DNA of 50,138 nucleotides from the NCBI GenBank assembly GCA_027858295.1, contig JAQICZ010000012.1:1-50138 (forward strand). Direction: 5' to 3'. The position numbers were made by a program, and so were the translations under genes. This DNA comes from Nanobdellota archaeon (GTDB lineage Archaea > Nanobdellota > Nanobdellia > Pacearchaeales > GW2011-AR1). This document shows, piece by piece, positions 5,648 through 47,267 of the stretch; position 1 is the first letter of the stretch, and each line of letters starts with the position of its first letter. The notes under the pieces were generated by a model. That model was given only the letters and a program-made list of their open reading frames with translations. It searched no databases and was not told the origin of the DNA.

Positions 5648-6835
5648 TTATTTTGTTATTTCTCCGAAGCCGATTAGTCTCCAATGGCCGCCAACGTTTC
5701 TTGCAATTCCTACATTGTCTCCTTCTAGAGCTACAATTGGGATGTTTAGGTTCATTTCAACTTCATCGCCTGAAATCTTTTCAACAGTTCCAACTGTAAT
5801 TGTTGTATTTACTGAAAGCATTAACATTTCTGTTGTTTTTAATTCTTCTACTTGTTTTTTTGTTTCTTCGCCTAGAACTTCTTTGAATAGTTCTGTTTTG
5901 ATTTTTGTCTTATATGTAATATCTGGCAAGACTCCTTCTATTGAACATACTGAGCCTGTTAATGAATCTGTTCTTGTCATAAAGGGATCTAGTTCTGTTT
6001 CAATTGAAATACTTGCTCCAGGCAATACTTCATCTACTGAATCTGAGCCCTTGTGTAATGAGATAATTTTTGTTGTTAATGGTGAATATGTAAACTGGTT
6101 ATTCTTTTTTGTTGAGAGCCCTGGTTTTATTTCGATGCTATCTCCAACTTTTAATTTTCCTTGTTTTAGAATTCCACCCAGAACTCCTCCATGGATATCT
6201 TTGATTTTTGTTCCTGGTCTGTTAATATCAAAACTTCTTGCTATTAAAAAAACTGGATTTTTTGTTTCGTCTCTAACGGGCACTGGTAATTCTGTTAACA
6301 TCTCAAGTAATTTGTCTATGTTTACATTTTGTTGTGCAGAAATTGGGATTACTGGTGAGTTTTCAGCAATAGTTCCTTTGACAAAGTCTTTGATTGTTTT
6401 GTAATTTTCTAGAGCTCTTTCTTTAGTTACTAGGTCAATTTTATTTTGAACAATGATTATATTTTTGATTCCTTTTGCTTGAAGTGCCATAAAGTGTTCT
6501 TTTGTTTGTGGTTTGATTCCCTCGTTTGCTGCGATAACTAGAATAGCTGAGTCGATAATTGCTGCTCCTGAAAGCATAGTTGCCATTAACATTTCGTGAC
6601 CTGGTGCGTCAATGAAAGAAACGTATCTTTCTGGAGTTCCTCTTTTTTCGTTAGTGAATTCGTCGCCGTCTTTTGAAATAATTACTTCTGCGTAGCCTAA
6701 TTTGATTGTAATTCCACGCTTTAATTCTTCAGAATGAGTGTCTGCAAATTTTCTTGTTAGTCTTGATAATAGGGTTGTTTTTCCGTGATCAATGTGCCCT
6801 ACAACTCCAACATTTATTTCTTTTAAGTTAGTCAT
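5648..6835 (-). CDS. eif2g: Translation initiation factor aIF2 subunit gamma
   Basis: GTPase motifs GHIDHGKTTL, DAPGHE, NKID; RGITIKLGYAE; full-length 395 aa. Confidence 0.95.
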   Translation of the reverse strand: MTNLKEINVGVVGHIDHGKTTLLSRLTRKFADTHSEELKRGITIKLGYAEVIISKDGDEFTNEKRGTPERYVSFIDAPGHEMLMATMLSGAAIIDSAILVIAANEGIKPQTKEHFMALQAKGIKNIIIVQNKIDLVTKERALENYKTIKDFVKGTIAENSPVIPISAQQNVNIDKLLEMLTELPVPVRDETKNPVFLIARSFDINRPGTKIKDIHGGVLGGILKQGKLKVGDSIEIKPGLSTKKNNQFTYSPLTTKIISLHKGSDSVDEVLPGASISIETELDPFMTRTDSLTGSVCSIEGVLPDITYKTKIKTELFKEVLGEETKKQVEELKTTEMLMLSVNTTITVGTVEKISGDEVEMNLNIPIVALEGDNVGIARNVGGHWRLIGFGEITK

Positions 6836-7418: not shown

Positions 7419-7822
7419 GTGAATTGATAGAGGGTTGTTGGGTTAATGTGAAGGCATAGTTGGAATGTATTTTTGGTAGATAGTTTTGTGTAATTGTTAA
7501 TGGGGCAGAAGACAAATTCCTTCGCAAACTCAGTTGTTGGGGCAAGTTAAACTATCGCCTCTGGCAGGGACAAATATTGATGAGGTTTTTGGTGGTTGAG
7601 GGCAATGGATTGATAGTTAGGGTGAATTGATAGAGGGCCGTTGGGTTAATGTGCCGGCATATTTGGAGTAAATTTTTAGTGAGCCCGTAGCTAGATTTTG
7701 TCATGAAGTTATTATTCGTTTGTAATATTATTTTTTAAAATAGATTCGCTGCCGCTCATAATTGATAGAAGACAGTTAAGTTATCCTAAGGGCATACTTG
7801 GAGCGTTTATTTATGGCGGATA
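7419..7822. repeat. Three degenerate ~60-bp direct repeats
   Basis: GTGAATTGATAGAGGGTTGTTGGGTTAATGTGAAGGCATAGTTGGA (7419), GTGAATTGATAGAGGGCCGTTGGGTTAATGTGCCGGCATATTTGGA (7621), CATAATTGATAGAAGACAGTTAAGTTATCCTAAGGGCATACTTGGA (~7756). Confidence 0.8.
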
Positions 7823-7842
7823 TTTAATTCTATTTTTATAGA

Positions 7843-8113
7843 ATATTTGGTTATGATAAGTTGATTTTATAGAGCGGAACGGAGTGACCTCGTAAAATTA
7901 ATTTGGCAAATTGTCGCAGGGAATTTCCTCATAACTGTTGTTGTTTGACCAGAGGCAGAAGCCGAGAGCCTGCAAGGCGTGGCAAGAAATTATGGAATAA
8001 TTTCGTAGAGTTTTAATTTTTCTTTTCAGGTTGGGGGAAGACGGTGGGACGACCAATGTATTAGAGAGATAAGTCCGCTTTTTGTTTCTTTTTTCTAAAA
8101 AGAAAATGGGGAG
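7843..8113 (+). repeat. Type-B structured repeat, copy B1 (attC-like candidate) with long tail
   Basis: ATTTGGTTATGA...CTGTTGTTGTTTGACC...GAGAGCCTGCAAGGCGTGGCAAG...GAGAGATAAGTCCGC; tail closely matches 17237-17410. Confidence 0.8.
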
Positions 8114-8120
8114 TTCCTTT

Positions 8121-8771
8121 TTATAATTCAATTTCTAAATTTTCCACTTCTTCTTTTTCTGTAAGTAAATCAATTATTGTTATTTCCAAAAGATAAGTGC
8201 CAGAGTCATATTCGTCTAACTCAAGATTTATATTATAATGTAATTTACTTTGGGATTCATCAATATTCTCTACACAATTGGGGATTGAAGAGCAAAATCC
8301 TTTATCAATTCCAACATCCCAACTATTTACCCAAAGATTATTTCCATCTTCATCATATAATTTTTCGTAAATATGGATTTTGTAATAATTATCTTGTACT
8401 ACTCCAACAACAGAATAAGGTACTTTCCAAAAATAATTATTAACTTCTTCTATTTTATCGGTAAAAATATGTGGAGAATTATATTTTGGGGTAATTTCAC
8501 TTTTTTCTACTGAATTATTTTTTAATATTTCTTCATTCTTGTCCTCTTTGTTTTCAATTACTTTTTCAACTTCTTCATCTCTATCACAAATACTATTTGA
8601 GTTTTGGTCTAAACAACATTCAATTCCAACTTTTATGTAAGGAGAATTACAAATAATTTCATTTTGAGGATTGTTATTTGAATTTGAGATTAAAACAATA
8701 GCAAGAACTACAATGGCAACAATAGAAACACCAATCCAAAGATAATTATTATTTTTCTTTTTGTCTACCAT
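8121..8771 (-). CDS. Single-TM membrane-anchored extracellular protein, uncharacterised
   Basis: 216 aa; N-terminal TM (YLWIGVSIVAIVVLAIVLI) then polar Asn/Glu-rich region. Confidence 0.7.
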   Translation of the reverse strand: MVDKKKNNNYLWIGVSIVAIVVLAIVLISNSNNNPQNEIICNSPYIKVGIECCLDQNSNSICDRDEEVEKVIENKEDKNEEILKNNSVEKSEITPKYNSPHIFTDKIEEVNNYFWKVPYSVVGVVQDNYYKIHIYEKLYDEDGNNLWVNSWDVGIDKGFCSSIPNCVENIDESQSKLHYNINLELDEYDSGTYLLEITIIDLLTEKEEVENLEIEL

Positions 8772-8772
8772 T

Positions 8773-8916
8773 TTATTGTTTATTTTTTATATTATTTAAA
8801 CCTGATCTTTCAATTGAAATTATTATGCCCCAATAATAAATATCTTCTTTTGTAATATTTTTTACTCCTCGTTCATTCAATTCTTTTTTTATTTCTGATA
8901 TTGTAAGCTTATTCAT
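8773..8916 (-). CDS. 47-aa conserved micro-protein (IYYWGIIISIER family), paralog of 18494-18640
   Basis: MNKLTISEIKKELNERGVKNITKEDIYYWGIIISIERSGLNNIKNKQ; stop one base before the start of the 8121-8771 gene. Confidence 0.75.
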   Translation of the reverse strand: MNKLTISEIKKELNERGVKNITKEDIYYWGIIISIERSGLNNIKNKQ

Positions 8917-8922
8917 TTTAAT

Positions 8923-8974
8923 ACATTAATTAATGCAATATATTGTATTTAAATCTTACTGCACTAATTAATGT
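8923..8974. promoter_or_regulatory. Inverted-repeat operator candidate in divergent promoter
   Basis: ACATTAATTAATGC (8923-8936) and GCACTAATTAATGT (8961-8974), inverted with one mismatch, between two divergent start codons. Confidence 0.6.
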
Positions 8975-8977
8975 AGT

Positions 8978-9151
8978 ATGGTAGAAGTAAAATTACAGGA
9001 AAGAGTTTCGAAGCAAGGGAAGAATGAGTATAAGACTTATGTCGTGACCTTGCCGAAGATTATAATTGAGGCGATTCCGAATTTAGCTAAGACGAAAAAG
9101 TTTGATGTTGAAGTTGATGATGGGAAGATTGTTTTGATTCCTAAGAAATAA
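8978..9151 (+). CDS. AbrB/SpoVT-like small DNA-binding protein
   Basis: 57 aa MVEVKLQERVSKQGKNEYKTYVVTLPKIIIEAIPNLAKTKKFDVEVDDGKIVLIPKK; swapped-hairpin AbrB-like pattern. Confidence 0.7.
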   Translation: MVEVKLQERVSKQGKNEYKTYVVTLPKIIIEAIPNLAKTKKFDVEVDDGKIVLIPKK

Positions 9152-9193
9152 TTATATAGTAATGTTCTCAAGATTTAAATAATATCAATTGTA

Positions 9194-9427
9194 TTGATTA
9201 ACATGGAAGAAGAAACCCAGATTCAAATATTGATAAGTTCAATCATTGCATTAATTATTAATTTATCTTTTTCGATTACTCAAATTTTAAAAGAAGCCCT
9301 TACAGACATACCTTCAGTTGCAGGCTATGAATGGTTACATCCTTTCTTAATAATGTGCTTTTTTATTGCAGAGATTGCTGGGATTTATGGTTTATTATTT
9401 AAAATTTTAAATTTCGGAAATAATTAA
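9194..9427 (+). CDS. Small two-TM membrane protein
   Basis: 77-aa ORF with two hydrophobic segments. Confidence 0.6.
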   Translation: MINMEEETQIQILISSIIALIINLSFSITQILKEALTDIPSVAGYEWLHPFLIMCFFIAEIAGIYGLLFKILNFGNN

Positions 9428-9428
9428 T

Positions 9429-9869
9429 ATGGGAAATAAGGAAGTAGATTTATGGTCAATTGAAAGTCAAATTTATCCCATTTTGGATGCAAAAATGATG
9501 AGGAAAGAATTTTCGTTTAAAGATGAATTTGATTTAGGAGGTAATCAAAAGTTTTCCATAGCAGTTAATTCTAAAAATGGCTCTCCAGTTTCATTGCATC
9601 AACAATTTAATTCAAATGATATAGATTTTAAGATGGATTTTAGAAGTGACAAGGATAATTGGTTTAGAACAGATAATCAATCTCATGATTATTTGCATTT
9701 TCATTTAGAAAGTGGTGGACAACTATTTGATGATAGAATTAAGATGTCTGAAACAAATACTATTTCTGGATTAATTTCAGAAACTTTTGAAAAGGCTTCA
9801 AATATAATCTCTTGGAAGTTTCCAAGTTTCTTGGTTGTTTCTGGGACAGGTTTTGTTGGAACTGCTTAA
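9429..9869 (+). CDS. Hypothetical protein
   Basis: 146-aa ORF immediately after 9194-9427. Confidence 0.6.
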   Translation: MGNKEVDLWSIESQIYPILDAKMMRKEFSFKDEFDLGGNQKFSIAVNSKNGSPVSLHQQFNSNDIDFKMDFRSDKDNWFRTDNQSHDYLHFHLESGGQLFDDRIKMSETNTISGLISETFEKASNIISWKFPSFLVVSGTGFVGTA

Positions 9870-9877
9870 AAAAGATA

Positions 9878-10447
9878 TTAGTTCTCGAATAAATATTTTC
9901 TTACTTCCCGAATTAAGAATAAGATAGCCCAAGAAGCAAGAAAAGTTAGAATTAATTTTGTAACTCCTGACCAAAATTCAGGCTTTATTATTGGTTTAAC
10001 ATCTCTTCTTCCATATTCTACCACAATGGTTTTATTTTCTGCAATAAGGTCTCCAATATTAAAACTATTGCTTCCCTCTTGAATTAAAGTTTTTACTCCA
10101 AGATTCAAGTTTACAATTTCACAATATTTCCCTTCAGAGGTTATGTTAAATAGTTTAGTCTCTTCTCCATTTGTTAGTTGGGTACTATAAGGATATGACT
10201 TAGAACCTCCAGAATCTATGAAACAAAATTTATAATGGTCTGACCTGAACGGAATATTAATTATTTGCCTCAGAGAACATTTTAGAGATGGACAATCATC
10301 ATCCAAAGCCATAGCATTACCTCTTTTTTCAAACTGATAATTATTTGGATTAATTGAAGAAAAAATCCAAAGATAAATTAAAAGGGGTACTACTACGATT
10401 AAAAAGAATTTCCAACAAATTTTTTTAATCGTATTATTCTTTCTCAT
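9878..10447 (-). CDS. Membrane protein with N- and C-terminal TM segments, uncharacterised
   Basis: 189-aa ORF; two TM segments flanking an extracellular Cys-containing domain. Confidence 0.65.
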   Translation of the reverse strand: MRKNNTIKKICWKFFLIVVVPLLIYLWIFSSINPNNYQFEKRGNAMALDDDCPSLKCSLRQIINIPFRSDHYKFCFIDSGGSKSYPYSTQLTNGEETKLFNITSEGKYCEIVNLNLGVKTLIQEGSNSFNIGDLIAENKTIVVEYGRRDVKPIIKPEFWSGVTKLILTFLASWAILFLIREVRKYLFEN

Positions 10448-10483
10448 AAAAAAATAAAGGTTGCCTTTTTTATATATTTAATC

Positions 10484-10740
10484 ATCTGCGAAAGCCAAAC
10501 TATATATCCGCAGGATTAGGAACTCCCTATCAATGAAAAATTTGCGTGAGTGAAACGAACCTTTTATCCTTGGTTATGCGAAATTTTAATTTCGTTTGTT
10601 TTTTGGTTGTGGTCGGATAAAAGAAGTTCTTATATTTTTGTCTAAGACAAAAACTATTTGTCCGAAGGACTGCGGGCTTATCTCTCGTCTCGTTGGGGTG
10701 GGAAAGAAAAGAAAAATTAAAATTTGGGCGAAGCCAAGCA
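10484..10740. repeat. Type-A structured element, copy A1
   Basis: Highly similar to 19862-20104; internal hairpins; tail GCGGGCTTATCTCTC...GAAAAGAAAAATTAAAA is inverted relative to the B1 tail. Confidence 0.8.
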
Positions 10741-10821
10741 ACAAGTTGGCGGAAGAAGTTTTCTATTTGTTCTATAGGCTTTGCAGTGGAAGTGGGCTCG
10801 TTCCTTGTGGAAAGATTAATT

Positions 10822-11287: not shown

Positions 11288-12047
11288 TGATGGATGTTGC
11301 TGTGAAAATCATTAAGAAATGTTTCAGGAAAGCATAGAGGAAATATTCACAGGTTGGGGTTATTTGTGTTTTGCATCCGTTTGAAAGGGACCTAGTTTTC
11401 AAGCCACATGTTCATGTGATTGCTACGAATGGCGGATTTGCTGAAGATAATAAGTTTGTAAAATTGGGTTTTATTAGTTACGATTTGTTGCATAAGACTT
11501 GGCAATATAATCTTTTTATGGAGTTAAAAAATATATTTCAAAGAGGATTACCGATTGCTGTTTTGATAAATATCCTAGAGGTTTTGCTTGCTATTTGAAG
11601 CCTGAGGTTATTTGGTCTAATAAATTTTTGTCGAAATATATTGGTAGGTATTTGAGGCATCCTGCGATTGCGAATTCTCGGATTGTTTTTTATGATAGGG
11701 AGATTGTTCGGTTTTATTATTTGGATCACAAGACCAAAAAGAGGGTTATTTGTGAGATGAAGGTTTTTGATTTTATCGCTTCGGTTGTTCAACATATTCC
11801 CAATAAGAATTTTAAGATGATTCGTTATTATGGCTTGTATTCTCGGAAGGGTGTGAAGAAGGTCTGTGAGATTTGTTTACAGTCATCTTTAAAGGAAGAA
11901 GTTTTATTTGCTGAGAATGAGGTTTTTTGGTGTCCTTGTTGTTTTGAGAAGATGATTTTTGTTGCTTATTTCAAGAATCCGCCTGATGATTTGGTTTTAA
12001 GGGTTAAAGATGGAAGGTTTTTTCAGATGGGCACCCGAAGGGCCTAA
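11288..12047 (+). pseudogene. IS91-family (Y2/HUH-like) transposase remnant
   Basis: HPFERDLVFKPHVHVIATNGGF...ISYDLLHKTWQYNLF (frame 1) continues as CCFDKYPRGFACYL...KYIGRYLRHPAIANSRI...IRYYGLYSR...C (frame 3); frameshift near 11555 and an in-frame TAG upstream. Confidence 0.75.
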
Positions 12048-12336: not shown

Positions 12337-14268
12337 ATGAATAAAACTAATTTTAATTTTTGGATTCTTTTAATAGTCTTTTTAGGACTATTTCAAACAG
12401 TTTATGCTGGCGATGAGTCATCTATTTCTGTTGAAAACACTGAAATGGATTGTATTTTAGAAAATCATGCAATGTGTAATGGGCAATGTATAGATTTGAG
12501 TAATAATGATTTAAATTGTGGTATGTGTGGTACTGAATGTGAATCTAATTCTCAAAACTGTGTAAATTCAATTTGTATTGAGAATAGTGAAGCTGAATTA
12601 TCTCCTTATAATGAATTTTTAAAATTATTGAAAGATAATTATATTATTAATATTCAAGGAATTAGAAATGATTCTTCAATTCAATATATGTCAATTAATT
12701 TGATAGATGGAAATGTTATTGATGAAGAAAATGATGATGCATATCTTTTATTTGAAGTTGAGCAAGAAACTATTGAAGATATGTTTACAAAAGGAGGCAA
12801 TCTTGGAATAATTTTCTTTAACAAAGTAGTTTCAGGTGAAATTAAAATGACTAAACTTGATAACATAGGTATGTTTGAGAGTATTGGAAATTGGGTTGGT
12901 GGAATCTTTAGTGATAATGATTTAGAAAAAGTAGATTCTTATTCAAAATTTATGGATTTAGAATTGATTAAGTTGAATATGGTTTGTGACATAGATGGTT
13001 CTTATTTTGATTTTGATGAAATTACTTGTTTAAATCTTAAAGGTAATTATGAAAAAGAAAATAATCAATTAATAGTTAATTCTCTAGAAAATTGGGAACT
13101 TGAAAATGAAGAAATTCTTTTCAATAAAAGATTTTTAATTTCAAATGAATCTGATGCTTTAAAAATGCTTGGTGAAGTTATGAATGCAAGAGAAGAAGGT
13201 AAAGTTGCTCAAAATGTTTGGGATAATTTTGGAGTTGGAGATAAATTTAAAGATAGAGTAAATCTTGATGGTTCAATTGATTTAGGAGCTTTTACTGACG
13301 GCATTGGAGATGAAATAGGAAATCTTGATGGTATTGGTGGCTTTGATGATGGTTTAGGTGGAAGAATTGGTGGCTTTGACAATATTGGCGGTTCAACTGA
13401 TTTTGATGATGGTTTAGGTGACATGGGAAATCCTAACGGTGGATTTATGGGTGATGGTTTAGGTAATGATTATAGAGGTAATGGGAATACTGGTGGCTTT
13501 GATGATGGTTTAGGTGGTTTTGGTGATTCTAATAAAGATGGGGGTTATGATGGTCAAATGGGTGGAGACTCAGGTTATGGTGATACTTCAGGTTTAGGTG
13601 GAGCAGCTGGTGCTGGAGCAGGTGGACTTGGTGGAGGTGCTGGTCAAGATACAACTTGGGGTGTGGAAGCTAATCATTTTAGTTATAAACATTCTGGATC
13701 TAGTGGATATGATTCATTTTCTCATCATCAGGAAAGTGTTAGTAATGATAACGGTTTTTCTTCAACTACTGATAAACAATCATTTACAAGTGCAGATGGT
13801 ACAACTACTACAAGAGTTGTTGTAACTCAAACTGATGCAGATGGTAATACAAAAACTTCTTCAACTACTACAACAAAAGATAGTGATGGAAACAGTAAAT
13901 CTACTCAAACTTATACGGAAACAGATTCAGATGGAGAAGTTACTGAACAAGAAACAACTACTAAGAGTGATCCACCAGAAGATGGTGATGATGATAGTTG
14001 TGAACCTGCAGATGGTGAATATCATGATAATTATGTTCCTCCAGGAGAAGCTGAAAAACAATCAGCTGTAGGTAGAGCTATTATGAATGGAGGTCTTGCT
14101 GGTGGAAGTCCTATTGGATATGAACAAGCTGGTGCTGTAGATGGTGTTGGAACTTTCGATCCAAATGGTCTTGGTTGTCAAGATGGTGGATGTACTAATA
14201 GGGAAGTTGGTGTCAAGGTTAATGAAGATAAATTTGATACTGGAAATATTAATCCCGGATTAAAATGA
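12337..14268 (+). CDS. Large secreted Gly/Asp-rich repetitive surface protein with N-terminal Cys-rich motif
   Basis: Signal peptide; NCGMCGTECESNSQNC; repeats of GFDDGLGG-type sequence; Thr/Ser-rich DADGNTKT region. Confidence 0.75.
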   Translation: MNKTNFNFWILLIVFLGLFQTVYAGDESSISVENTEMDCILENHAMCNGQCIDLSNNDLNCGMCGTECESNSQNCVNSICIENSEAELSPYNEFLKLLKDNYIINIQGIRNDSSIQYMSINLIDGNVIDEENDDAYLLFEVEQETIEDMFTKGGNLGIIFFNKVVSGEIKMTKLDNIGMFESIGNWVGGIFSDNDLEKVDSYSKFMDLELIKLNMVCDIDGSYFDFDEITCLNLKGNYEKENNQLIVNSLENWELENEEILFNKRFLISNESDALKMLGEVMNAREEGKVAQNVWDNFGVGDKFKDRVNLDGSIDLGAFTDGIGDEIGNLDGIGGFDDGLGGRIGGFDNIGGSTDFDDGLGDMGNPNGGFMGDGLGNDYRGNGNTGGFDDGLGGFGDSNKDGGYDGQMGGDSGYGDTSGLGGAAGAGAGGLGGGAGQDTTWGVEANHFSYKHSGSSGYDSFSHHQESVSNDNGFSSTTDKQSFTSADGTTTTRVVVTQTDADGNTKTSSTTTTKDSDGNSKSTQTYTETDSDGEVTEQETTTKSDPPEDGDDDSCEPADGEYHDNYVPPGEAEKQSAVGRAIMNGGLAGGSPIGYEQAGAVDGVGTFDPNGLGCQDGGCTNREVGVKVNEDKFDTGNINPGLK

Positions 14269-16808
14269 AAAATATAAATCAAAAATTATTGATATTTTGT
14301 ATTGTATTTATTTTATCTTTACATTTTACTTTTGCATGTTATACTCCTACTGGCGCAGTAGGAATTGATTTTGATGAAAATAGTGGAGATAACTTAACAA
14401 TTTGTACTGGTGATTATAGTTATGGTTCATCTAGTACTCATATATTTGAGTTACAAGGAAGTAATTATGTTTTTGATTGTAATAATTCTAATTTTTATGG
14501 TAATTTAACAGGAGCTGATATAGGAACAATGTTTAGAATTACAGGACACCATATTACTATAAAAAATTGTAATATTAATAGTTTTGCTACAGGAATAGAA
14601 GTTTATTATAATGATAATAATATTATAATTGATAATGAATTTTATTCAATTAAAACTATTGATATTTCATTGAATGAAGCAAGTAATAATGTTATAGATA
14701 ACATAACTTCAATTGGTGATTTAATTGATAATGTACATAAATCTATTTATCTTATACGAGCACATAATAATACCATTAGTAATCTTAAGTTATATAATCA
14801 AAGAATTGGATTAAGTGTAGTTGATTCAAATGATAATAATTTTGAAAATGTTTTGATAAATGTTTCATCAACTGGATTTCAACTACAAACTGGAAATAAT
14901 AATTATTTCAACAAGTTTAGAATTTGTAATAATGATTATTCTGGAATTTTTGGTGATGGAGTTAATTTTTTTGGTGATGATGGTCAGGGAAACGTTTTAA
15001 ATAATTCTAATATTTATGGTAATACTCTTGGAATTAGAATTCAGAATGGAAATAAATTAATAATAAATACAAATATATCAGGTTCAACAGATGGAGCTAT
15101 TTCTTTTAGAAATGGTGCAATTAATAATACTCTTTATAATTTAAATATATCAAATAATCCTGGCAAAGGTATTTATTTTTATGGTTATAATTCAATAAAT
15201 AATTTTATTTATAATAATTATTTTTCAAATAATTCTCAAAATATTGATTTAGTATATACAGAGAATACTCCCAATTATTTTAATACTACTAAAACACCTG
15301 GAACTAATATTATTGGAGGTGCAAATATTGGTGGTAATTATTATGATGATTATGTTGGTACAGATTCGGATTCAGATGGAATTGGTAATGTAAGTTATGA
15401 TTTGGGTTATGGTATTTATGACTTTTTGCCTTTGACTAATAATCAAAGTGTAGTAATTGTACCAAGTAAAGATATTAATGTTTCATTTAATTCAAATAGT
15501 ATTGATGAGGGAGATTTTGTAGAAATTGAAGTTAATTTTTCAAGTTTTAATAATCCAACTAATATTTCAATTAATTTTGGTGATGGGAATGTTTCAATTT
15601 ACAATTCTCAAAGTTCTCCTTTTTATGTAAATCATACTTTTATTGATGATGGGAGCTTTGATCTAAATATTAGTGTTTATGATAATGTTGAGACTATTAG
15701 TGATTTGACAAGTATTACTGTGTTAAATACTGCTCCTTTTGATTTGAGTTTTGGTCAACAAATGAATCAAGATTCGTCTTATTCATTTCAACCTACATTC
15801 TTAGATAATGGAACTGATGATTCTCATACTGTTTTTGTTTTTTGGGGCGATGGTAGTAATTCAAGTCTATTTGTTGATGGAAGTAATGCAATCTCTCATA
15901 ATTATTCAAGTGATGGAAGTTATAATATTAATTTTTCAATTATTGATGATAGTGATTTAAGTTCTTCTTTTTTAGATTTTGATGTTACATTGAATGATGA
16001 TGAATTTGAAATCTTTAATAATCAAACGATTACTCTTGGGACAAATGCTTCTTTAGAATTATTTATTAAATATATTAATTCTGAGAATATTAATATTACT
16101 TGGGGAGATAGTACTAATACATTTGATAATAATGAGGCAAATGGGAGCTCATATTCACACAATTATACAGCCTTTGGTAATTATACTGTTAATGCAACAT
16201 TAGTTGGTTGTAGAGCAGGAGGATTATGTATAACTGCTAATGAATACACAGCAACTATATGGGTAAGTGTTATTGGTTATGGTGATGGTATAGTTAATGG
16301 AGTGGAGGCTTGTGATATAACAAATTTTGCTGGGAAGAGTTGTTCTACTTATGGTCATAATACGGGGAGTTTAACCTGTAATGCTGGTGTTATTGATAGT
16401 TCGGCTTGTTCAACTGCGAGTACTGGTGGAGGGGGTTCTTCCAGAACATATAACGAGGTAGTTGATGAAATTAATAGTACATTAATTAATAAAACTGGTT
16501 TGGATAAAAAAAATAGTTCTAAATTTAACAATTTAATTGAACTTATTAATCAAACTATACCTTCTTTAATTAATGTAACAATTCCTATTGTTGAAAATAA
16601 ATCAATCATTTTTGATTTTACCCCTTTTATTAATCCCATTTTTGATTTCTTTGAAATTGATTTTATAGATGAAGAATATAATTTTAAACCTAGATTATCT
16701 TTAATCTTAAATCAATATAAAAATGAAATAAATTGGAATGAAGAAGGAGAAATTTATGATTTCAAAAAAAATATATCTTTGATATTTAATCAATGGGTGC
16801 AAGAATAA
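14265..16808 (+). CDS. Secreted right-handed beta-helix (NosD/pectate-lyase-like) plus PKD-like surface protein
   Basis: Signal peptide; many NxIxxN repeats; FGDGNVSIYNSQSSPFYVNHTF PKD-like motif; ATGA overlap with the upstream gene. Confidence 0.8.
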   Translation: MKNINQKLLIFCIVFILSLHFTFACYTPTGAVGIDFDENSGDNLTICTGDYSYGSSSTHIFELQGSNYVFDCNNSNFYGNLTGADIGTMFRITGHHITIKNCNINSFATGIEVYYNDNNIIIDNEFYSIKTIDISLNEASNNVIDNITSIGDLIDNVHKSIYLIRAHNNTISNLKLYNQRIGLSVVDSNDNNFENVLINVSSTGFQLQTGNNNYFNKFRICNNDYSGIFGDGVNFFGDDGQGNVLNNSNIYGNTLGIRIQNGNKLIINTNISGSTDGAISFRNGAINNTLYNLNISNNPGKGIYFYGYNSINNFIYNNYFSNNSQNIDLVYTENTPNYFNTTKTPGTNIIGGANIGGNYYDDYVGTDSDSDGIGNVSYDLGYGIYDFLPLTNNQSVVIVPSKDINVSFNSNSIDEGDFVEIEVNFSSFNNPTNISINFGDGNVSIYNSQSSPFYVNHTFIDDGSFDLNISVYDNVETISDLTSITVLNTAPFDLSFGQQMNQDSSYSFQPTFLDNGTDDSHTVFVFWGDGSNSSLFVDGSNAISHNYSSDGSYNINFSIIDDSDLSSSFLDFDVTLNDDEFEIFNNQTITLGTNASLELFIKYINSENINITWGDSTNTFDNNEANGSSYSHNYTAFGNYTVNATLVGCRAGGLCITANEYTATIWVSVIGYGDGIVNGVEACDITNFAGKSCSTYGHNTGSLTCNAGVIDSSACSTASTGGGGSSRTYNEVVDEINSTLINKTGLDKKNSSKFNNLIELINQTIPSLINVTIPIVENKSIIFDFTPFINPIFDFFEIDFIDEEYNFKPRLSLILNQYKNEINWNEEGEIYDFKKNISLIFNQWVQE

Positions 16809-17151: not shown

Positions 17152-17410
17152 AAACTAACATTTGGTTATGAAAAGCTCTTTGGAGTGTAGCGGAGAAAAT
17201 TTGGGAAAATCTAACAGGGATTTTCTCTTTAACTGTTGTTAAGTCGTGCGAGCGAAGTGAGAGCCTGCAAGGCGGTGTCGAGAAATTATGAAATAATTTT
17301 TGCAGAGTTTTAATCTTTCTTTTCAGGTTTGGGGAGGACGGTGGGACGACCAATGTATTAGAGAGATAAGCCCACTTTTTGTTTCTTTTTTTTAAAAAGA
17401 AAATGGGGAG
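17152..17410 (+). repeat. Type-B structured repeat, copy B2 with long tail
   Basis: AACTAAC (17152) ATTTGGTTATGA...TTGGGAAAATC..GGGATTTTCTC...GTTAAGT (17237)...GAGAGCCTGCAAGGCG...GAGAGATAAGCCCAC. Confidence 0.8.
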
Positions 17411-17454
17411 TTCTTTTTTGCCTTCTTTTTTCTAAAAGAAGTTTAGAATTAAAA

Positions 17455-18492
17455 TTATTTTAATTGAAGTTTAGATTTTGAATATTCGACATAACAAATT
17501 CCTTGTTCATTGGTGTTTTTAATCAAAGAACAAACATTCGAATTAATATTTTGATTCGTTTCATCCATGGATTCAACTGCAGATATTATGCAATTTGATT
17601 TTATAGGATTTAAACAAATATCTAAATTTACACTTCTTCCGTATTGTTCAATGCAAGAATCTATATGAGCTTCATCGCTCCTTTCTTGACAAAATGAAAC
17701 ATCATTCGTTAAAAGTGATAAAGCCAAAATACAAGAATCCCTTCTATTGTTTTTAATCAACAAGCATTTATTAGACTCTTTATTATTCATAGCTTGACAA
17801 AGTAAACAATCGCTTTCTTCCGATTCATCTTCATATGTTGAACAATCTTGGTTATTATATTCAGATTTACAATTATTCCCATATACAGCAATAATAGTTT
17901 CTTCTTCTGTTCTCTTTAAACTTTCTTCAATAGTATTTAATGAATTTAAACAATCCTTTTCTGATAATCCAAACTTAACATCTCCTTCGCTATCTACTAA
18001 TCCATCATTTTTGACTTCTTGTTCTTTCTGCTCAATTAAGTCACATGCTTCTTTCTCTTGGTAAAATTGCATATAATTTCGCAGACACCATATTTCTGAT
18101 TCTAAGTCTATTGAATACGCACATTGGTTCATATCTTTTGTTGCTATTGCTTCACATTTCCATCTTAATTTTTTATCTTCTATTTTTATGCAATTATTTT
18201 CTTCTGTATGTATGGAAAGAATATAATAACATTCATCAATATCATCTTTCCCAGAAGGATTTCCATTGCTAAATGATTCACATAAATATGAATTTGTATC
18301 TTTATATGCTTGACATCTTTTTTGCCAAACTTCATTATCAGTATCAAGACAATAATTATTATCTAAAGAACTCGTTGGTTTTGAGTTATTATTATTTGAA
18401 TCAGTAATTGTTTCTTGATTTTGAGGAAGAAAAATTAATATTAAAAGAACCACGCAAGCTATTCCTATTATTCCAGTTGTTATTTTATTCAT
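17455..18492 (-). CDS. Single-TM membrane-anchored Cys-rich extracellular protein
   Basis: N-terminal TM (ITTGIIGIACVVLLILIFL), Cys/Glu-rich; start at MNKITTG fits linkage with the upstream micro-protein. Confidence 0.75.
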   Translation of the reverse strand: MNKITTGIIGIACVVLLILIFLPQNQETITDSNNNNSKPTSSLDNNYCLDTDNEVWQKRCQAYKDTNSYLCESFSNGNPSGKDDIDECYYILSIHTEENNCIKIEDKKLRWKCEAIATKDMNQCAYSIDLESEIWCLRNYMQFYQEKEACDLIEQKEQEVKNDGLVDSEGDVKFGLSEKDCLNSLNTIEESLKRTEEETIIAVYGNNCKSEYNNQDCSTYEDESEESDCLLCQAMNNKESNKCLLIKNNRRDSCILALSLLTNDVSFCQERSDEAHIDSCIEQYGRSVNLDICLNPIKSNCIISAVESMDETNQNINSNVCSLIKNTNEQGICYVEYSKSKLQLK

Positions 18493-18493
18493 C

Positions 18494-18640
18494 TTATTTT
18501 TTGTTGTTAACAATATTATTTAAACTTAATCGTTCAATAGAAATTATTATGCCCCAATAATAAATATCTTCTTTTATAATATTTTTTATTCCTCTTTCTT
18601 TTAATTCTTGTTTTATTTTTTGTAATGTTAGTTTTTTCAT
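18494..18640 (-). CDS. 48-aa conserved micro-protein (IYYWGIIISIER family), paralog of 8773-8916
   Basis: MKKLTLQKIKQELKERGIKNIIKEDIYYWGIIISIERLSLNNIVNNKK; start overlaps the preceding ORF stop (ATGA). Confidence 0.8.
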   Translation of the reverse strand: MKKLTLQKIKQELKERGIKNIIKEDIYYWGIIISIERLSLNNIVNNKK

Positions 18641-18789
18641 TTTGAGCATAAGACTAAAATTTTTATGTAGTCTTCCCAGTTTAATTTTTCATATTTGTGA
18701 TTCTTTATGTAACGATTTTTTCTTTTTTTCATTATTCCAAATGTTGATTCGTCGAATTTTAGGGAGAGATGTTTTTGTTTCATATTCAT
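18637..18789 (-). CDS. 50-aa basic small protein, possible regulator/antitoxin-like
   Basis: MNMKQKHLSLKFDESTFGIMKKRKNRYIKNHKYEKLNWEDYIKILVLCSK; coupled by ATGA to 18494-18640. Confidence 0.55.
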   Translation of the reverse strand: MNMKQKHLSLKFDESTFGIMKKRKNRYIKNHKYEKLNWEDYIKILVLCSK

Positions 18790-18848
18790 TACACCAAATA
18801 TGGTAAATCATATTAATATATAAACCTTACCCTTAAAATGGTGTAATG
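18787..18848. promoter_or_regulatory. Perfect 10-bp inverted repeat covering both divergent start codons
   Basis: CATTACACCA (18787-18796) and TGGTGTAATG (18839-18848). Confidence 0.7.
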
Positions 18849-19115
18849 ACGACTAAAATCCTTCTCCAAAATGAGAAATTATTTTCTAAAATAAAGATAG
18901 TTTCGAATAGATTTAGGTTTAAGATTTTGGAATTGACCCAAGATGAATCATTAAGTATTTCCAAATTAGGCTCTACTTTAAAACTTGCTTATACAAAATG
19001 TGCGGATTATGTGAGTATGTTGGAAAAAGAAGGACTTATTGAGAAAACAAAAGATGGAAAGGAAGTTTTAGTCAGGAGTAAGGTTAAGATAAAAGAGGGG
19101 CAGGTTATTTTTTAA
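18846..19115 (+). CDS. Winged-HTH (ArsR-like) transcriptional regulator
   Basis: RFKILELTQDESLSISKLGSTLKLAYTKCADYVSMLEKEGLIEKTKDGKEVLVRS. Confidence 0.75.
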   Translation: MTTKILLQNEKLFSKIKIVSNRFRFKILELTQDESLSISKLGSTLKLAYTKCADYVSMLEKEGLIEKTKDGKEVLVRSKVKIKEGQVIF

Positions 19116-19131
19116 AACGGAAGTATTTTAC

Positions 19132-19797
19132 TTATTGCCATCCATGTTGTTTATCACCATCTAGATTTAATTTAAAAATTTCTTTGTCAATTATTTTTAA
19201 ATGCTTGAAAATAGCCTTGATATTTTTTAGTGTTCTTTCATCATCTTTTAGTTCAATATACAACGCTAAGCTATTCAGTCTTTCAATAATTTCTGAGATA
19301 TTCAATATCAAATTATGTGATAAATGGTTTACATTTAATGAAGTTAAATCGACTAATTTTGTTTTATATCCAATAAATAATTTATTAGAATCGATCTTTT
19401 TTTTGTAATAATCAAGATACTCATCATTTAAAACCAGTTTATCAATTTTTTCAAAAATATCCTCATAGTTATTAGCCCTAATGCCTCTTTCTGAAAAATT
19501 AACTAAATGTTCTAAATCAATGTATATGTATGTAAATAATCTTTTTAAAATTGGTGAAAACTTTATAAGATATTTTTTCTTGAATTTCTTTTTTTGTCTA
19601 GATGAGTTATAATTAATAAATAAAATTGCGATAAATACTCCAAATAACGATGAATAAATTGCTTGCATAAAAATTTTCCATTCTAAAAATTTTAAACCAA
19701 TTATATATGAAATAAAAAGTAGGGAAGCAATTATTATTAAAGTAGATTTACTATTATTGATTTCAATTTCATCTAATCCCGATTTAATAAATGACAT
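19132..19797 (-). CDS. Two-TM membrane protein, uncharacterised
   Basis: 221-aa ORF with N-terminal TM pair and helical cytosolic part. Confidence 0.65.
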   Translation of the reverse strand: MSFIKSGLDEIEINNSKSTLIIIASLLFISYIIGLKFLEWKIFMQAIYSSLFGVFIAILFINYNSSRQKKKFKKKYLIKFSPILKRLFTYIYIDLEHLVNFSERGIRANNYEDIFEKIDKLVLNDEYLDYYKKKIDSNKLFIGYKTKLVDLTSLNVNHLSHNLILNISEIIERLNSLALYIELKDDERTLKNIKAIFKHLKIIDKEIFKLNLDGDKQHGWQ

Positions 19798-19861
19798 AAA
19801 TTGAAAGATGTTTGCAAAATTATAAAGCTTGTGTTAATGCTTTTTGTTGGAAAATAATTAA

Positions 19862-20104
19862 TTCTCGGAGAAAGCTAAACTATCTATCCGAAGGATTAGG
19901 AGCTCCCATTATCAATGAAAAATTTGCGTGAGTGAAACGAGCCTTTTATCCTCGGTTATGCGAAATTTTAATTTCGTGGTTTGGTTTTCGTTGGTCGGAT
20001 AAAAGAAGTTTTTCTATTTTGTCGAAGACAAAAAGCTATTTGTCTGGAGGACTGCGGGCTTATCTCTCGTATCGTTAGGGTGGGAAGAAAAGAAAAATTA
20101 AATT
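19862..20104. repeat. Type-A structured element, copy A2
   Basis: Near-identical blocks with 10484-10740: ATCAATGAAAAATTTGCGTGAGTGAAACGA, CTTTTATCC, GGTTATGCGAAATTTTAATTTCGT, GGACTGCGGGCTTATCTCTCGT. Confidence 0.85.
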
Positions 20105-20378
20105 TTAGCGACGGAGGAGCGACAACAAACCTATTATTATATTTTGCGACGAGATTATTGTTAGTTGAGAATTTTAATAGAGCAATTTATGTCTGCATTG
20201 TACGGATAAGATTGTGCCTTGCTCATGGATGAGCTTTCATATCAATACTAAGCAGTATAGCAATAAAGAGCTGAAATGAATTTTGAGAGTCAGTATCTAG
20301 CTGTAATGCAGTAATTTTGATTAAATTGCATAGTAGATATAAAATTAAAATGTTAATTTGATCGAGGACAAAAAGTAT

Positions 20379-20816
20379 TTAGTTGGCTTCTGGAGCTGCT
20401 TCTACTGCTGGAGCATAAATTTCTGTTAAAGTTTTAGCACCTTGTTTTACAACTTTTAGGTTAATTTGAGTGATTTCTTCTGATATCATATTCCCTCTAA
20501 CTGTTTTTCTTAATTTTAATCCTTTTGGAGTTGGATTTGATGATTTTTTCTTACCTTCTTTTCTTGGCTTTTTCTTCATACCTTTACCATAAGTTAATAG
20601 AAGCTTTTTTCTTCCAATACCCTCAACTTGTTTCATTACAGTAAATCCTGATTTATCAGAAGCACCTGTGATTTCGAATTCGTATCCTTCTAAATCTGCA
20701 GAAATAATGTTTCCTGGAACAACTTCACCTAGTATTTTGTCGATGAATTCTAATCCTTCGATTTCTACTTTCCAAGTTTTCCCTGTCTTTTCAGATAAAT
20801 TTAGTTTGAATGTCAT
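20379..20816 (-). CDS. rps6e: 30S ribosomal protein S6e
   Basis: MTFKLNLSEKTGKTWKVE..GLEFIDKILGEVVPG..LEGYEFEITGASDKSGFTVMKQVEG..RKKLLLTYGKGMKKKPRKEGKKK..GLKLRKTVRGNMIS. Confidence 0.95.
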   Translation of the reverse strand: MTFKLNLSEKTGKTWKVEIEGLEFIDKILGEVVPGNIISADLEGYEFEITGASDKSGFTVMKQVEGIGRKKLLLTYGKGMKKKPRKEGKKKSSNPTPKGLKLRKTVRGNMISEEITQINLKVVKQGAKTLTEIYAPAVEAAPEAN

Positions 20817-20892: not shown

Positions 20893-21060
20893 GGCAGGTT
20901 GACATGTTTAGTTAGATTAAGGCTACCAATGGCATAACCCGATATGGGAAGCTGGGCCTCGGTTAAATTATTCCTCGCAGTTGTGCATGAGAATTATTGA
21001 TGGCTACTCAATTTAGACTTATCAGAGCTTAGTACTGTCCCTTATAATCTAAGGAAAATC
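20893..21060. ncRNA. Conserved intergenic element type C, copy C1 (possible structured RNA; strand unknown)
   Basis: TACCAATGGCATAACCCGATATGGGAAGCTGGGCCTCGGTTAAATTATTCCTCGC; near-identical to 49859-49960 over ~100 nt. Confidence 0.5.
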
Positions 21061-28150: not shown

Positions 28151-28300
28151 TTTTAACATTTGGTTAAAGAAAGTTCTTTGAAGTGCAACGGAAAAGAATT
28201 TGGGAAAATCTTGCAAGGATTTTCTCTTTAACTCTTGTTCATTTCTCCTAGGCGTAAGTCGAGAGCCTTTAAAGCGTGGCAAGCGAGATTAATTTTAGAC
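28151..28300 (+). repeat. Type-B structured repeat, copy B3 (attC-like candidate)
   Basis: TTTTAAC (28151) ATTTGGTTAAAGAAAGTTCTTTG...GGGAAAATCTTGCAAGGATTTTCTC...GTTCATT (28237)...GAGAGCCTTTAAAGCGTGGCAAG. Confidence 0.8.
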
Positions 28301-28368
28301 AAATTTTAAAGGGGGCGTTTTTGACTTTTTTAGTTAATTTAATAAAAGATGAAGCTAATTATTTTATT

Positions 28369-47153: not shown

Positions 47154-47267
47154 TGAGTTTTTAGTCTTTAGTTGTTAGTCATTAGCTGGTGATTTTCAAT
47201 TGTTAGAAGAGCTTGGATGAATATATTCGTGGAATTGGTTATATTGTTTGGTTAATTTTATTTATTG

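Follow-up and report, generated by a model that had tools for sequence, protein, structure and literature searches.

Bacterial attC recombination uses the bottom strand of the site, and the IntI domain is held to be necessary for integron recombination. Xer-type recombinases move gene modules at the pdif sites of bacterial plasmids, and dif itself consists of two arms of about 11 nt around 6 nt. In archaea, Ghaly et al. (2022, PMC9668308) reported integrons with 539 attC sites but only six IntI, presence of the IntI-specific domain being the criterion for calling an integrase. Here, we describe arrays of attC-like sites in a 50,138-nt stretch of DNA from a Nanobdellota archaeon (contig JAQICZ010000012.1; hereafter the window) and in its relatives, and propose, with a probability of roughly three in four, that a block near the left end of the window, module 1 (Table 1), belongs as a gene cassette to an integron-like system found in Pacearchaeota-type and other DPANN archaea. 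Like the archaeal integrons and CALINs of Ghaly et al. (PMC9668308), the arrays combine attC-like folded sites on one strand with short cassettes, in lineages that include Nanoarchaeota and Aenigmatarchaeota, and the sites reported there may be the same as ours. The integrases of that report, however, carry the IntI-specific domain, whereas the enzyme associated with our arrays belongs to the XerA family and lacks it.

Table 1. Coordinates of the two modules, the downstream array and neighboring features in the window
Feature	Position	Strand	Evidence or remarks
aIF2-gamma, left conserved neighbor of inserted region	5648..6835	-	
attC-like folded site, left edge of module 1	7842..7942	+	covariance models R1/R2, E 3e-10 and 3.5e-9
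tail B, module 1, starts at GTT	7940..8130	+	84% identity to module 2
216-aa ORF, N-terminal hydrophobic anchor	8121..8771	-	ORF list
47-aa ORF with motif KEDIYYWGIIISIER, common to module 2	8773..8916	-	
AbrB/MazE-like regulator, 57 aa	8978..9151	+	Pfam MazE_antitoxin E 2.2e-4, under curated cut-off
two ORFs, 77 and 146 aa	9194..9869	+	without Pfam family
189-aa ORF with hydrophobic segments	9878..10447	-	
tail A, module 1, finishes at AAC	10474..10742	+	88% identity to module 2
degenerate IS91-type transposase, outside module 1	11371..12047	+	Pfam Y2_Tnp E 8.6e-21, two frames
attC-like site, left edge of module 2	17157..17242	+	E 5e-12
tail B, module 2	17240..17430	+	
module 2 cargo	17455..19797		352-aa anchored ORF (-), 51-aa shared ORF (-), winged-helix regulator 18846-19115 (+), 221-aa ORF (-)
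tail A, module 2	19854..20106	+	
ribosomal protein S6e, right conserved neighbor of inserted region	20379..20816	-	
array, mostly single-gene cassettes	28155..33418	+	sites 28155, 29460, 30197, 31452, 32401, 33331; 30815 weak

The unit that recurs at cassette boundaries lies outside the tails and measures about 80-150 nt, running from AACAT through a stem, two hairpins and the returning stem to TGTT. Across 17 units aligned on sequence alone, the outer stem is 93.6% paired, and the same units show 28 two-sided changes, against 1-3 in controls with slid partners. Several of them take a Y-shaped DNA fold in which the spacer beside the AACA/TGTT termini stays unpaired and two hairpins form the inner part; the window sites at 7842 and 17157 fold more poorly than the best sites of relatives. 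These units thus have the imperfect inverted repeat, the AAC/GTT outer boxes and, by prediction, the single-strand fold of attC, and judged from sequence their anatomy of outer triplets, spacer, inner boxes and variable terminal structure is that of an integron attC. Within the R' box, GTTRRRY, GTT is invariant and the remainder is variable: GTTAAGT at 17240 fits the consensus, and GTTAGTT and GTTGCTT do not. GNA triloops, which are favorable in DNA hairpins, occur in 39 hairpins against 5 in shuffles, with the AACAT strand favored 39 to 13. With the recombinase drawn on the left, the AACAT strand would be the bottom strand, as in bacterial attC, a correspondence that is suggestive only. Folded and 80-150 nt long, the array sites do not have the form of a Xer/dif or pdif site, a 28-bp duplex with two 11-bp arms. 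A scan for perfectly symmetric sites proved too strict and recovered few.

Of 186 genomes of the order, 82 carry sites found by covariance-model searches, as do 57 of 149 genomes drawn from the phylum. MAGs named Candidatus Pacearchaeota belong to the window's family: site positions in contigs L189 and L187 match those in G093 and G100, two genomes of that family. Among 56 genomes, the 85 sites fall into 54 clusters. Of these, 18 hold multiple sites, and none of the 18 is of mixed strand, giving the cassette array with sites in one orientation that is expected of an integron. All sites in the window, including a second weak one at 34946, likewise lie on the plus strand. Cassettes (n = 35) have a median length of 843 bp and mostly hold one ORF; their genes face either way among sites that keep to one strand, and 37 of 55 point away from the recombinase. 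Cargo of the array at 28155-33418 comprises U32-like, DUF5694-like (under cut-off), NADAR and methyltransferase genes and one without assignment, and one further ORF looks like an epimerase. Genes for a ParE-like toxin, methyltransferases and a deaminase are also among the cassette cargo. In L062 (genome G007), two site-like repeats enclose, at 8179-8674, a ParE-like toxin gene together with a small DUF7557-like ORF.

Modules 1 and 2 share a common plan: a site, a B tail, an anchored protein, a 47-51-aa ORF, a divergent regulator, more cargo and an A tail. The regulator is AbrB-like in module 1 and a winged-helix protein in module 2. The small ORF bearing KEDIYYWGIIISIER (8773-8916 and 18497-18649) is kept in both modules, and the rest of the cargo differs. 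Two proteins of module 1 have counterparts in the array of another genome, G044: a homologue of the 216-aa ORF (53% over 74 aa) adjoins an A-like tail there, and the 146-aa ORF has a 34% homologue in a cassette. The site at 7842, whose first triplet is AAT in place of AAC, aligns over its full length, at 85% identity, with a site on a Pacearchaeota contig (L189, 3389-3490). The window holds other features around the modules. Three imperfect 59-nt direct repeats (63-85%) lie directly left of module 1 at 7419-7815; the degenerate Y2_Tnp transposase is situated between modules 1 and 2; and two large plus-strand ORFs (643 and 847 aa; 12337-16808), surface-protein-like with repeats, finish just before the module 2 site. 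Further repeats (72-94% identity) at 20893-20978, 47220-48572 and 49663-49943 are not matched by the site model, and ARAGORN found no tRNA.

The first-pass annotation had described module 1 as bounded by inverted repeat tails, and the six motifs it named all lie exactly where it placed them. The 17-nt stretches at 8011-8027 and 10706-10722 are perfect reverse complements, those at 8064-8078 and 10672-10686 match as reverse complements at 14 of 15 positions, and GTTGTTTGAC (7940-7949) and GCCAAGCAAC (10733-10742) match as complements at 8 of 10. Shuffled sequences gave a local alignment as good as that between tail B and reverse-complemented tail A in 0 of 1000 trials for module 1 and in 4 of 1000 for module 2. 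The alignment with module 2 that it called for gives 84% identity between the B tails over 225 bp and 88% between the A tails over 257 bp. The inverted matching stretches are short, yet both whole tails recur: tail B is present in 19 and tail A in 15 of the 56 genomes searched, the window's own genome counted. Of the limits given earlier, the right one, 10742, is correct, as several independent copies of tail A finish at the AAC of GCCAAGCAAC; several copies in other genomes finish at ...GAAGCCAAGCAAC. The left one, 7843, has to be moved: the folded site 7842-7942 begins there, and module 1 proper runs from a first triplet GTT (7940-7942) to a last triplet AAC (10740-10742). We find no intact site at the position to the right of module 1.

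The same annotation offered two readings of this block. That it is a larger member of a cassette class agrees with our data: module 1 holds several genes and has a recombination-type site as its boundary, and further along the contig single-gene cassettes follow one another. That it is a non-autonomous element with the inverted tails as its mobile ends does not: the boundary that is conserved lies outside the tails, at the AAC/GTT of the folded site, and A-like and B-like tails are also found separately from each other. The tails appear instead to be conserved cassette leaders, and may carry promoters or accessory binding sites.

The gene order PDDEXK-like, aIF2-gamma, S6e, DHH is kept in relatives, and comparison with them, proposed earlier as a search for an empty site, identifies module 1 as an addition: since aIF2-gamma and S6e lie 0.24-4.9 kb apart in 13 relatives and 13.5 kb apart in the window's own genome, with modules 1 and 2 inside, the block has been added. 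The gaps of these 13 relatives contain no convincing site, with two weak matches (E 0.11 and 0.17). The block thus withstands the refutation proposed in the first-pass annotation, under which flanks in relatives would always contain it. Comparison of cassette sequences indicates movement from genus to genus: G017 and G022, of different genera, share a 2.8-kb three-gene cassette at 88.6% identity, with sites and flanks that differ, and identity in a cassette common to contigs L184 and L189 is lost at AACAT. Over all blocks, homology ends within 5 nt of AAC in 8 cases, against 2.6 expected and a null maximum of 9, only weakly above random.

A tyrosine recombinase gene lies within 4 kb of only 10 of the 54 clusters, though many contigs are short. 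In all ten it keeps to the same strand and to the TGTT end, against 0.24 such cases expected (P = 7e-14). A scan of named genomes found relatives of this recombinase in MAGs labeled Pacearchaeota, Aenigmatarchaeota, Nanohalarchaeota and Parvarchaeum; 14 of the archaeal loci extend over 1.5 kb upstream of the gene, and 12 of these 14 have same-strand sites there; the bacterial loci scanned have none. Several contigs break off just upstream of the recombinase gene, where repeats would interrupt assembly. Bacteroidota tyrosine recombinases (L192-L202) are 37-47% identical to the array type, and none lies near this site family where scanned.

In a phylogenetic tree, nine of the ten array-labeled recombinases group with three others, at a fork of modest support (88/83) for the twelve, apart from a housekeeping XerA clade of 22 that contains no array-labeled member; we left the G017 recombinase, which lies 10 kb from its sites and in another clade, out of the array enzymes. 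The best NCBI family is archaeal XerA (NF040815), and among solved structures the nearest in sequence is 4a8e, a XerC-like recombinase that we take to be Pyrococcus XerA. We rejected a true IntI on three grounds: scores under the cut-off of the integron integrase model TIGR02249, a stretch of that profile left unmatched (positions ~184-236), and the spacing between the catalytic lysine motif and HxxR. This spacing is 61-63 residues in array recombinases and 64-66 in housekeeping XerA, against 106 in Vibrionaceae integrases, so the IntI insertion of about 43 residues is missing from the array enzymes. Across 56 relatives, no IntI match rises above the cut-off. Catalytic motifs are present in intact array recombinases. 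The window's own genome encodes two array-type recombinases, interrupted by stops or truncated, which look broken, and relatives carry intact copies. The array recombinase would be a non-IntI variant new to the literature searched, where, with thin coverage of subscription journals and preprints, we found no other description of the recombinase-array combination.

About 90 bp before the recombinase start codon, AACA(T) precedes a palindrome whose arms measure ~8-15 nt and are separated by 4-18 nt. Compared with shuffles, this palindrome stands out in 12 of the 17 loci from named archaeal genomes, in none of 27 bacterial loci, and for 7 of 11 array-type recombinases of the first genome set. In G010 and G022, A-type cassette ends abut it. 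The palindrome is thus a candidate for the attI that integrons carry beside the integrase gene. Some of these palindromes resemble dif, with two ~11-nt arms around 6 nt, and the recombinase belongs to the same family (NF040815) as that of archaeal XerA/dif resolution; unlike that system, the array enzymes form a separate tree group and their sites are long, folded and many per genome. As in pdif modules, gene modules go together with a Xer-type recombinase, but the array sites are 80-150-nt hairpins all facing one way, whereas pdif sites are 28-bp duplexes. The overall layout is that of a bacterial superintegron, with the recombinase at one end, an attI-like site before it, single-gene cassettes, most genes directed away from the recombinase and a ParE-like toxin gene in the cargo. 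Unlike superintegrons, these arrays lack the IntI insertion, have a Y-shaped conserved site core, and have about one third of their genes facing the recombinase.

We propose that cassettes are delimited by the folded site of attC anatomy, with its AAC/GTT triplets, unpaired spacer, covarying inner stem and variable hairpins, and that the XerA-family tyrosine recombinase beside its own attI-like palindrome at one array end is most likely the acting enzyme. This enzyme would act at the AAC/GTT triplet of sites folded from a single strand, and recombination there would allow cassettes to be inserted, removed and reordered. The mobility of module 1 was most likely supplied by the tyrosine recombinase found beside other arrays. 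Since the contig bearing the window's modules has no recombinase and both copies in its own genome look broken, the window cassettes are probably now immobile, or moved in trans.

Movement in trans is also the basis of a competing, and in our view unlikely, explanation: that these are ordinary integron CALIN clusters served by a classical IntI elsewhere, with the adjacent XerA-like gene a passenger. The attC anatomy of the sites fits this, as do the CALINs and Nanoarchaeota attC already reported (PMC9668308), but the XerA-like gene always occupies the same end and strand and is accompanied by an attI-like site, the 56 relatives yield no IntI match above cut-off, and our site model finds no site in Vibrionaceae loci bearing IntI-like enzymes. 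A very improbable reading is that the modules are transposon-like, with terminal inverted repeats of MITE or IS91/Y2 type, and were moved by a transposase like the degenerate copy at 11371-12047. Inverted tails are present and the Y2_Tnp remnant adjoins tail A, but it lies outside module 1, whereas an IS91 element holds its HUH Y2 transposase inside; the sites bound many unrelated single-gene cassettes that have no tails; and the enzyme that recurs beside arrays is a tyrosine recombinase. We therefore dropped the rolling-circle and MITE readings of the tails, the recurrent boundary being the folded site. Slimmer still is the chance that the sites work as RNA, in the role of terminators or regulators between ordinary genes, as their intergenic placing and conserved fold would allow: same-strand sites lie among genes in both orientations, cassettes transfer as units and are linked to a recombinase, DNA-favorable GNA triloops are enriched, and an Rfam search of the window matched no family.

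Beyond the cassette nature of module 1, we lean, with somewhat less confidence, toward a separate DPANN integron lineage, in which a XerA-family recombinase without the IntI domain captures cassettes via folded single-stranded sites and a dif-like attI. If so, the IntI insertion is not a precondition of integron-type recombination, and the Xer origin of integrons becomes testable in a natural system that has attC-like sites without that insertion. Archaeal attC clusters that seem to lack integrases could then be explained, since searches demand the IntI domain. For the small-genome DPANN archaea, the system would represent a widespread gene-capture device.
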